From Paenibacillus sp. VTT E-133291 (lineage in GTDB: Bacteria; Bacillota; Bacilli; Paenibacillales; Paenibacillaceae): DNA of 64,000 nucleotides. Positions 18,878-20,726 of this stretch are shown here, in pieces. The notes beneath the pieces were generated by a model. The model was given only the letters and a program-made list of their open reading frames with translations, made no database searches and was not told the origin of the DNA. The translations under genes and the position numbers were made by a program. How positions within the stretch are numbered: the stretch's first letter is position 1; each line of letters opens with the position of its first letter. The stretch is taken from positions 62,001 to 126,000 of the forward strand of contig NZ_NFVA01000001.1 of NCBI RefSeq assembly GCF_002264395.1, in the 5' to 3' direction.

Positions 18878-18912
18878 CGAATGAATTTCTTAATGCGTTA
18901 AGGATCGGAAAG

Positions 18913-18941
18913 TTGAAAAAAACAAATCGGCATGATAACAT
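18913..18941 (+). promoter_or_regulatory. Candidate promoter for the ABC-F leader transcript
   Basis: TTGAAA and TAACAT with a 17-bp spacer. A second weaker candidate (TTGAAA 18964, TATTCT 18986) lies downstream. Both are 110-140 bp ahead of the leader peptide, leaving a long 5' untranslated region. Confidence 0.4.
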
Positions 18942-19050
18942 GGATACAAATTAATGATCGGAGTTGAAAAGTATAGTGTAGTAATTATTCTTGCGACACA
19001 TGATGAATAAAACAACAAAAACGGTTTATTTCGTTTGTTTTATTTTTTGT

Positions 19051-19101
19051 ATGCAAGAAAGTTACTACTTCTTTTCACTCGAACAATATATCCTTATCTA
19101 A
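19051..19101 (+). CDS. Candidate leader peptide of the ABC-F gene
   Basis: A 16-codon reading frame (MQESYYFFSLEQYILI) in the leader of the Lsa-type gene. No clear Shine-Dalgarno precedes its ATG, which lowers confidence. Codons 2-6 contain CAAGAAAGTTACT, exactly complementary to bases 19148-19160 in the downstream terminator, so translation of this peptide could steer the RNA fold. Short leader peptides controlling antibiotic-resistance ABC-F genes by ribosome stalling are established for vmlR/vga-type genes. Confidence 0.5.
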   Translation: MQESYYFFSLEQYILI

Positions 19102-19177
19102 CTCCATTAGGGGCTAGATTTGCTGTATTTATTTGAGTCACAAGAAAGTAACTTTCTTGTGGCTTTTATTTTTTTAT
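19054..19177 (+). promoter_or_regulatory. Transcription attenuator upstream of the Lsa-type ABC-F gene
   Basis: The terminator hairpin is AGTCACAAGAAAGT (19136-19149) with ACTTTCTTGTGGCT (19151-19164), followed by TTTTATTTTTTT. The competing antiterminator is CAAGAAAGTTACT (19054-19066) with AGTAACTTTCTTG (19148-19160), a perfect 13-bp match. A small hairpin at 19096-19119 (ATCTA/TAGAT arms) covers the leader-peptide stop. The terminator ends right before the ribosome binding site AGGAGG, so the gene is read only when it is disrupted. Confidence 0.75.
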
Positions 19178-19193
19178 ACAGGAGGATACTTAT

Positions 19194-20672
19194 ATGTCAT
19201 TAATAAATGTTACCAATCTAACCTTTGCCTATGAAGGCAGCTACGATAACATCTTTGAGAATGTTAACTTTCAAATCGATACGGATTGGAAATTAGGATT
19301 TACCGGAAGAAACGGTAGAGGAAAGACCACCTTTTTGAGTTTATTACTAGGAAAATATGAATACAGCGGAAATATCTCTGCGCATGTCAGTTTTGAATAT
19401 TTCCCTTTCCAAGTGGATAACAAGGAGCTTAATACCCTGGATGTGATCAGTGAGATTTTTCCGGATTATGTTCATTGGAAATTACTGCGTGAGCTTTCAT
19501 TGTTAAAGGTGTCTGAAGATGTGTTATATCGGCCCTTTGACTCATTGTCTAACGGAGAGCAGACGAAAGTGCTGTTAGCCACTCTCTTCATTAAAGAAAA
19601 TAGCTTCCTGTTGATCGATGAACCTACCAATCATTTAGATATGACGGCTAGAAAACTGGTCAGTGATTATCTCAATACGAAAAGTGGATATATTCTGGTC
19701 TCTCACGACAGATCTTTTCTTGATAATTGTGTAGACCATATTTTATCCATAAATAAGACTAATATTGAGATCCAAAAAGGAAATTTTTCAAGCTGGTGGG
19801 ATAATAAAGTCAGACAAGATAACTTTGAGCTAGCAGAGGACGAGAAACTCAGAAGAGATATTAAACGCTTGTCTGCTTCTTCTAAACGGACAGGCAACTG
19901 GTCACATGAAGTGGAAAAAACAAAAAACGGAACGAGAAATTCCGGCTCAAAGGTAGATAAAGGCTACATTGGACACAAGGCCGCTAAAATGATGAAACGC
20001 TCTAAAGCCATTGAGCAAAGACAAAATTCTGCGATCAATGAAAAGTCTAAGCTTCTTAAAAATATCGAAAATTATGAGAATTTAGAGATTACACAGCTTG
20101 CCTATCATAAACGTCAACTTGCTGAGCTAGACCATATTTCGATTTTTTATGGTGGAAAAAGGGTATGTTCAGATGTAAGCTTCACTATCGAGCAGGGTGA
20201 GCGGATTGCGCTTTCGGGTAAAAACGGCTCAGGAAAATCAAGTATCATCAAATTGATGTGTGACGAGGATATAGATTTCACAGGCACTCTCATAAAGGAT
20301 AATCAGCTTACCATTTCTTACGTATCCCAAGACACTTCTAATCTTCAGGGGAATTTAACGGATTATGCCAGAGAGAATGGAATCGATGAAAGTCTGTTTA
20401 AATCTATTCTACGAAAGCTTGATTTTTCTAGAATCCAATTTGATAAAGACATATCCACTTACAGCGGTGGTCAAAAGAAAAAAGTACTGATTGCCAAAAG
20501 TCTTAGTGAGAAAGCTCATTTGTACATTTGGGATGAACCGCTTAATTTTATTGATGTCATTTCACGGATGCAAATTGAAGAACTGTTGCTTGAATACACG
20601 CCGACTCTTGTTTTTGTGGAGCATGATCGGGAATTTTGCAACAATGTTGCTACGAAGATCGTTGAACTTTAA
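19194..20672 (+). CDS. ABC-F ribosomal protection protein, Lsa family
   Basis: A 492-residue soluble protein with two ABC domains and no membrane segments. Domain 1: Walker A GRNGRGKTT, signature SNGEQTK, Walker B LLIDEPTNHLD, switch VSHDRSF. Domain 2: GKNGSGKSS, YSGGQKKK, LYIWDEPLNFID, VEHDREF. The lysine-rich interdomain linker (~205-300) would reach the peptidyl-transferase centre. The N-terminus (MSLINVTNLTFAYEGSYDNI) is characteristic of Lsa proteins, which displace lincosamides, streptogramin A and pleuromutilins from ribosomes. Expression is probably controlled by the leader attenuator. Exact drug spectrum cannot be read from sequence. Confidence 0.92.
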   Translation: MSLINVTNLTFAYEGSYDNIFENVNFQIDTDWKLGFTGRNGRGKTTFLSLLLGKYEYSGNISAHVSFEYFPFQVDNKELNTLDVISEIFPDYVHWKLLRELSLLKVSEDVLYRPFDSLSNGEQTKVLLATLFIKENSFLLIDEPTNHLDMTARKLVSDYLNTKSGYILVSHDRSFLDNCVDHILSINKTNIEIQKGNFSSWWDNKVRQDNFELAEDEKLRRDIKRLSASSKRTGNWSHEVEKTKNGTRNSGSKVDKGYIGHKAAKMMKRSKAIEQRQNSAINEKSKLLKNIENYENLEITQLAYHKRQLAELDHISIFYGGKRVCSDVSFTIEQGERIALSGKNGSGKSSIIKLMCDEDIDFTGTLIKDNQLTISYVSQDTSNLQGNLTDYARENGIDESLFKSILRKLDFSRIQFDKDISTYSGGQKKKVLIAKSLSEKAHLYIWDEPLNFIDVISRMQIEELLLEYTPTLVFVEHDREFCNNVATKIVEL

Positions 20673-20694
20673 TACAAATGAAGAAATGAAGGGG

Positions 20695-20726
20695 AAGTCG
20701 ACAGAGTTTATCTGTCGGCTTTTTTG
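20695..20726 (+). terminator. Terminator after the ABC-F gene
   Basis: AGTCGACAGA / TCTGTCGGCT stem with a 5-base loop and T run. Confidence 0.9.

Follow-up and report, generated by a model that had tools for sequence, protein, structure and literature searches.

A start-stop upstream frame as the likely sensor of a predicted attenuator ahead of lsa-type ABC-F genes in Paenibacillus and ahead of Cfr-type genes

The lsa-type gene in the window (the whole 64,000-nucleotide stretch of Paenibacillus DNA that was analyzed) is preceded by a leader that is probably a ribosome-mediated attenuator of transcription and translation, with a minimal start-stop upstream open reading frame (uORF), GTG-TAG in the window, as its sensor. 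Comparison of related leaders and predicted folds point to conservation and covariation of the terminator, the antiterminator, the central hairpin, and a structure that locks the Shine-Dalgarno (SD) sequence of the gene. They further point to a conserved SD and start codon of the uORF, conserved spacing of these from a short segment Z, and a fold switch. From these patterns we infer that the uORF is translated, that drugs stall ribosomes on it, where transcription terminates, and that the gene is inducible. The earlier note had placed the element at 19051-19193, which captured its 3' half and missed the 5' half, with the promoter, the uORF, and the anti-antiterminator; the whole switch exceeds the extent given there by about 100 nt. 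Its parts are as follows.

About 18948-19196, + strand: the whole switch.
18913..18941, + strand: promoter-like TTGAAA-17-TAACAT, found by a scan; transcript start inferred at about 18948.
18960..18963, + strand: SD sequence GGAG of the upstream frame, from GGRG conservation.
18961..19080, + strand: P1, predicted anti-antiterminator hairpin, 18961-18995 with 19052-19080, with an apical stem at 18998-19050.
18976..18981, + strand: start-stop uORF GTG TAG, the likely sensing site, from start and stop conservation.
18988..18994, + strand: segment Z, TTCTTGC, competitor strand to segment A (pairs 18994-19053 to 18988-19059), from folds.
19053..19066, + strand: segment A, predicted 5' strand of the antiterminator (the segment reported earlier plus one base), from folds, covariation, and matches.
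19069..19146, + strand: B:B', predicted extension of the antiterminator, 19069-19090 with 19124-19146, from the fold of lowest energy when a ribosome occupies the uORF.
19089..19128, + strand: anti-SD strands 19089-19095 and 19123-19128, predicted to pair with 19176-19188, from the full-length fold.
19093..19122, + strand: P2, the central hairpin, from covariation.
19135..19175, + strand: intrinsic terminator, stem 19135-19165 and T-rich tract 19164-19175, from a scan and covariation.
19180..19185, + strand: lsa SD sequence AGGAGG, with all six bases paired in the full-leader free fold (predicted OFF state).
19194..20672, + strand: lsa-type ABC-F gene, 492 amino acids.

The identification of this gene as an Lsa-type resistance gene was borne out: its product scores 763.5 bits with the Lsa family model NF000167 (cutoff, 750), and its best solved relative is Lsa(A) (7nhk). 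A terminator-like hairpin of 15 pairs is seen in a scan 3' of the gene, at 20691-20725. The drug spectrum of the protein is presumably that of a PLSA-type ABC-F protein.

The genus set comprises 100 genomes, among them that of the window, and 81 of these have an Lsa match at an E value of 1e-150 or better; a further 80 loci, the best 80 of a capped list, were taken from named genomes, mostly of Paenibacillus and also of Cohnella, Brevibacillus, Desulfosporosinus, and others. From these, 172 upstream regions were cut, 165 of them distinct. The pattern GGRG, TCTTGC, and segment A, in this order, was found in 130 leaders, which thinning by similarity reduced to 67, and 35 regions were unmatched. 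When leaders were chosen independently, with TCTTGC followed by segment A as the only requirement, 131 of the 165 regions qualified. One of these, L068, passed by accident and is the only one of the 131 that lacks GGRG and a start codon. The leaders are related, and the counts given here do not represent independent events. The unmatched regions include those of five paralogues that are not close to Lsa (L003, L004, L005, L007, and L008) and, among the 25 of 35 inspected, leaders of other kinds. L035, also one of the 35, is by eye a true leader; it reads TTCTTGT and was left out of the counts. Leaders L163 to L171, located 5' of lsa genes of 61 to 63% identity, belong to a different class, whose conserved frame (for example, MSNSDTIVTHVMLRISR) is of the conventional kind. 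Alignment A1 comprises 64 leaders, the thinned set of 67 minus L157, L032, and L037, which have long inserts; alignment A2 comprises 48. Because part of the A1 rows had Z misplaced by MAFFT, Z:A pairs were counted by anchors rather than by columns.

Conservation in the alignment begins about 90 nt 5' of the 16-codon frame to which sensing had been assigned earlier. The leaders share the order of promoter, GGAG, start codon, TTTCTTGC, a hairpin that varies and in many leaders is closed by AATAAAACA and TGTTTTATT, then segment A, the central hairpin, the terminator, and the lsa SD sequence. Promoter-like sites near 18913..18941 show no excess in the scan of the window (5 found versus 5.2 expected from shuffles). 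Among the 67 nonredundant leaders, the -10 element of the best promoter-like pair begins 23 to 26 nt 5' of GGRG in 56, and the pair scores at least 9 of 12 in 50 (12% of shuffles). The region 19030-19197 folds at -43 kcal/mol (z score, -5.2), and none of 200 shuffles is equally stable. Rfam has no match in the window at the gathering score; within 18900-19250, just two matches appear up to an E value of 1 (0.48 and 0.59), and neither comes close to its gathering score. When the genome that contains the window was scanned with a covariance model of the 3' part of the leader, there was a single match.

In appearance, the leader is a conserved transcription attenuator whose terminator and antiterminator exclude each other, a reading supported by covariation and folding. 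The segment described in the earlier note, CAAGAAAGTTACT, is located at 19054-19066, and its exact reverse complement, at 19147-19159, makes up the loop and 3' arm of the terminator. The 5' arm does carry a near copy of it, with one mismatch, at 19141-19153; the count of such 13-mers alone (3 seen versus 2.03 expected with up to 2 mismatches) is at chance level. The terminator claimed ahead of the gene was recovered as a terminator-like hairpin at 19135-19165 with a T-rich tail. In the 64 aligned leaders, it has 37 doubly changed cells versus 14.2 in shuffles, with three pairs showing a double change, which is no more than in shuffles. Segment A and the terminator arm are paired in 97.1% of cells in the main helix and 94.4% over 14 pairs, with 16 doubly changed cells versus 4.3 in shuffles. 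Thus, the proposed covariation check of the two stems in homologous leaders favors both, and the complementary segments are conserved. The hairpin said to cover the leader stop codon is also predicted, at 19096-19119 over TAA 19099-19101, within the span of P2. P2 has changes on both sides in 9 of 10 pairs and 36 doubly changed cells versus 16.5 in shuffles (22 to 32 in slid versions). The SD lock has 24 doubly changed cells versus a shuffled mean of 9.9; with the partner slid by 2 or 3 columns there are 30 and 26, but only about half of the cells are then paired. A TTCTTT sequence, which fits the NusG pause motif TTNTTT, lies at 19069; the motif is present at that place in 24 of 67 leaders (8% of shuffles), but two other T-rich stretches of the leader contain it in 51 and 48 of 67.

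The likely sensing site, GTG-TAG, is located 75 nt 5' of the frame reported earlier. GGRG is found within 45 nt 5' of Z in 130 of the 131 leaders that had been chosen without it (24% of shuffles), and ATG or GTG is found within 22 nt 5' of Z, again in 130 of 131 (55% of shuffles). A stop codon directly follows the start codon in 106 of the 131 leaders, versus 3.9% of shuffles, and in 54 of the 67 leaders of the thinned set. These 106 frames start with ATG (94) or GTG (12) and end with TAG (57), TAA (40), or TGA (9); L089 is counted by its GTG-TAA and also has ATG GAT TTT TCT TGC TAA. The gap between GGAG and the start codon is long, 12 nt in most leaders, and the SD region of the uORF is partly paired (18961-18971) in the free fold. 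In 107 of 130 leaders, Z ends at position +15 to +17, counted from the start codon's first base, close to the edge of a ribosome positioned on that codon, as judged by the +16 toeprint reported for vmlR (PMC9226507). For a tree, 99 leaders with a full-length Lsa protein were thinned to 87; on it, the start-stop label changes 13 times, with at least 7 changes forced by well-supported branches. Closest to the midpoint root, which serves for drawing only, are L201, L202, L210, and two from Desulfosporosinus (L201 and L202 are on long branches); they have frames of 6 to 7 codons, such as MDNFSC and MRNFSC. Hence it is the place of the start codon, and not the peptide, that is conserved.

Folding of the leader RNA predicts a switch that depends on this frame. 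Up to the T tract, the minimum-energy fold of the free window RNA combines the terminator with P1, in which the uORF region and Z are paired with A and B. When a ribosome footprint on GTG-TAG is closed to pairing, it becomes the antiterminator, and in this predicted ON fold the anti-SD strand 19123-19128 is absorbed by B:B'. Over 130 leaders, mean terminator pairing falls from 0.82 free to 0.12 masked, mean antiterminator pairing rises from 0.00 to 0.83, and Z:A pairing in the free state averages 0.91. Masking the uORF switches 113 of the 130 leaders; the 17 without a predicted switch include L031 and L172, in which the segments are probably misassigned. In a footprint scan of the window from 18960 to 19140 in 4-nt steps, P-site positions that give more antiterminator than terminator are confined to 18968-18992, an interval that includes the uORF start at 18976. 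The computed folds are equilibrium structures rather than cotranscriptional ones and ignore transcription speed. When the uORF is masked in the full-length leader of the window, the fold of minimum energy still retains the terminator and the SD lock, so that the switch would have to act during RNA synthesis, with release depending on the order of folding.

Two longer frames compete with GTG-TAG for the role of sensor. The earlier note had proposed that stalling in a 16-codon leader frame frees the antiterminator strand. This frame does exist at 19051..19101 on the + strand (MQESYYFFSLEQYILI), its first codons are the conserved segment, and ATG precedes that segment in 75 of 130 leaders (ATG, GTG, or TTG in 84). 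Still, 46 of the 130 lack a start codon there, an SD-like 4-mer is found 5' of the frame in none of the 84 start-bearing leaders, and the frames at this place vary from 5 to 53 codons. A ribosome on its start codon would hide the antiterminator strand itself: a footprint on its start or stop site gives an excess of antiterminator over terminator in 0 of 130 leaders, and window footprints from 18996 to 19140 do so at no tested position. Thus, the outline of a ribosome-mediated attenuator with a terminator and an antiterminator holds, whereas this reading frame was rejected as the sensor and as a functional uORF on the leader counts and the footprint folds, and stalling in it is highly improbable. 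Hardly more credible is sensing by a longer leader peptide, M-x-GVEK.. (MIGVEKYSVVIILATHDE in the window, start at 18954), that runs through the SD region. Its frame stays open beyond Z in 49 of 130 leaders, the window included, but a start codon is present in just 80, none of these 80 has an SD-like motif, and in 31 of them the frame ends 5' of Z. Moreover, no more than a few bases would separate the start at 18954 from the inferred 5' end. This candidate was rejected on the start, SD, and length counts of the 130 leaders.

An unlikely but less remote alternative is that the region 5' of Z is conserved merely as a strand of P1, with the start-stop arrangement as a by-product of GUAA, GUAG, or GUGA pairing with UUAC; the switch would then respond to another signal or act as a fixed partial terminator. 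TTAC occupies the relevant place of segment A in 98 of 130 leaders, and of the four GURR words that go with it, three yield stops; the stop codon can pair with this UUAC, so its conservation may be structural. Z:A hardly varies among leaders, and its core (96.6% paired, 0 doubly changed cells, versus 96.8% and 0.4 in shuffles) is uninformative as to covariation because it is nearly invariant and TCTTGC was part of the leader selection. Beside the core, single cases judged by eye favor pairing, namely GGATAAC/GTTATCC (L207), GCGGA/TCTGC (L142), and GTAA/TTAC (many leaders), and covariation of the apical part of P1 is weak (23 doubly changed cells versus 18.5 in shuffles). The start codon speaks against this alternative. 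Its first two bases are unpaired in the free fold of the window, and yet its U is retained in at least 90% of 64 leaders; the near-universal ATG or GTG is accompanied by an equally retained GGRG. All 24 leaders that lack the immediate stop still have a short frame of 2 to 8 codons from the start, and just one of the 130 has three codons. The same uORF is also found ahead of Cfr-type genes.

If the start-stop frame is the sensor, the leader would work as follows. Without drug, the ribosome would depart from the uORF and Z would pair with segment A to form P1, keeping A from the 3' arm of the terminator, so that transcription would end near 19175; in any read-through RNA, the lsa SD sequence would be hidden. 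A pleuromutilin, lincosamide, or streptogramin A would retain the initiating ribosome on the uORF start codon, with its leading edge (at about +16) covering Z. Segment A, released in this way, would pair with the 3' arm of the terminator, and B:B' would lengthen the antiterminator helix and absorb the anti-SD strand, allowing transcription and translation of lsa. The resistance protein would be made only in the presence of certain ribosome-blocking drugs. The uORF region is a mimic of the 3' arm of the terminator, so that a single ribosome footprint could decide the fold. A start-stop frame involves no peptide bond and no second tRNA and so, on this reading, would respond neither to amino acid shortage nor to tunnel-binding macrolides. 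Its response would be limited to drugs that stop the first reaction at the peptidyl transferase center, here probably the release-factor-catalyzed freeing of formyl-methionine. This would explain how the leader could discriminate center-binding drugs from other translation stress.

The element is widespread and is not confined to lsa. A covariance model of 145 positions, from segment A to the start codon, has matches in 69 of the 100 genus genomes (E value of 0.01) and in 51 of 398 class genomes (E value of 0.001). From the matched places, 33 were fetched, chosen mainly as having no tie to an lsa match, along with distant ones. Ten are located ahead of a full-length lsa frame (one of them, L204, with the leader 3' half only), 2 ahead of a broken lsa, 14 ahead of a Cfr-type gene, and 6 ahead of something else; in the one remaining place, lsa is about 1.9 kb away from the leader. 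A 430-residue frame lies within the approximately 1.9 kb between leader and full-length lsa frame in L188 (G074), presumably as an insertion. In L197, L198, L199, and L200, the 3' half of the leader model alone matches, ahead of genes that are neither lsa nor cfr. A leader relative is also found 125 nt 5' of the plasmid lsa(E) gene of an enterococcus (50.5 bits; E value, 1.5e-8), with a six-codon frame, MYNFSC; L202, which scores like the lsa(E) leader, switches in folding when masked, a result from its refolding, segment A having been misassigned in L202 and L203.

Cfr acts against drugs that overlap those of Lsa. Of the 14 Cfr-type methyltransferases, 13 are 68 to 97% identical to the remaining one, from L187; the four that were scanned (L187, L214, L191, and L186) pass the Cfr model TIGR04432. 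All 14 loci have an AUG-stop frame, and the switch is predicted in 8 and absent in 6. Leader and gene are not adjacent in these loci: where the reading frame opens with the gene, it begins about 190 to 430 nt past the leader match, and several loci have another short frame in between. In L213, 22 residues with 82% identity to the start of Lsa lie between the start-stop leader and the cfr-type gene, which fits the capture of an lsa leader by cfr. It is about an even bet that one RNA module serves as a peptide-free antibiotic sensor for the two unrelated resistance genes, lsa and cfr. In L189, L190, L191, L195, L208, and L211, a second short frame (EVV...VN....VH.....P..Y.SID.CT) lies between the attenuator and cfr. 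It resembles, by eye, MTELEVVDVYVNLS... ahead of lsa in the leader class of L036, L096, L123, L131, and L138, and it is perhaps a second sensor, based on a peptide. A gene for ribosomal protein L4 (TIGR03953) is found 3' of cfr in L186 (18-644, - strand; 221 bits) and 3' of a start-stop leader in L212 (1232-1855, + strand; 226 bits).

Bare start-stop frames are known from other settings. Escherichia coli start-stop sites, such as narQ GUGUGA, are described in PMC9841429 as a start codon with an overlapping stop that affects expression; they act by termination-reinitiation at the gene's own start and involve neither drug sensing nor a terminator. In Arabidopsis, AUGUAA of NIP5;1 (PMC11915504) controls its gene by ribosome stalling on a bare start-stop, but this unrelated plant system responds to boron through mRNA decay. 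A start-stop antibiotic attenuator was not found among the matches listed in the open-access literature on start-stop attenuation, Paenibacillus lsa leaders, cfr leaders, and lsa attenuation, which does not prove its absence from print. Published uORFs ahead of ABC-F genes for which those sources note a length have at least three codons. Thus, the uORFs of cplR, vmlR2, and lsaA found with uORF4u (PMC10201436, whose main text does not contain the word "Paenibacillus") are likewise very short and precede PLSA ABC-F genes, but they encode MR[I/M], MK[L/Q], and MAGN, at least three codons each, unlike the start-stop leaders. The default minimum in uORF4u is nine nucleotides (PMC10219788), so that a six-nucleotide frame would go undetected, and smORFer, as its description has it, deliberately excludes start-stop frames; such frames would escape tools that require three codons.

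The closest known system is the vmlR leader of Bacillus subtilis (Takada 2022; PMC9226507), and the earlier statement that the arrangement was not a recognized one does not stand, since the layout is the same. The likeness is one of layout and mode of working. Both leaders precede a PLSA-type ABC-F gene and have a tiny uORF, with its own SD sequence (predicted and conserved here), within an anti-antiterminator hairpin. Both have an intervening hairpin, an alternative antiterminator that excludes the intrinsic terminator (here from prediction and covariation), and an SD-sequestering structure, which the predicted folds and covariation suggest is undone in the ON state. In vmlR, the paper reports a 30S toeprint at +16 on the tripeptide uORF, NusG-dependent pausing, and virtual elimination of expression upon mutation of the uORF start codon or SD sequence; the corresponding start-codon stall is inferred for the present leaders. 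The vmlR uORF encodes the tripeptide MIN (MDN, MDK, and MRK in relatives), whereas three codons are not found in the window, which has GTG-TAG in keeping with most of the present leaders. What would be new relative to vmlR is this start-stop frame, without any peptide bond. If it is the sensor, drug-sensing uORFs would reach their lower limit here, and the leader lends itself to asking whether termination at a start-stop codon is blocked by pleuromutilins, lincosamides, and streptogramin A.
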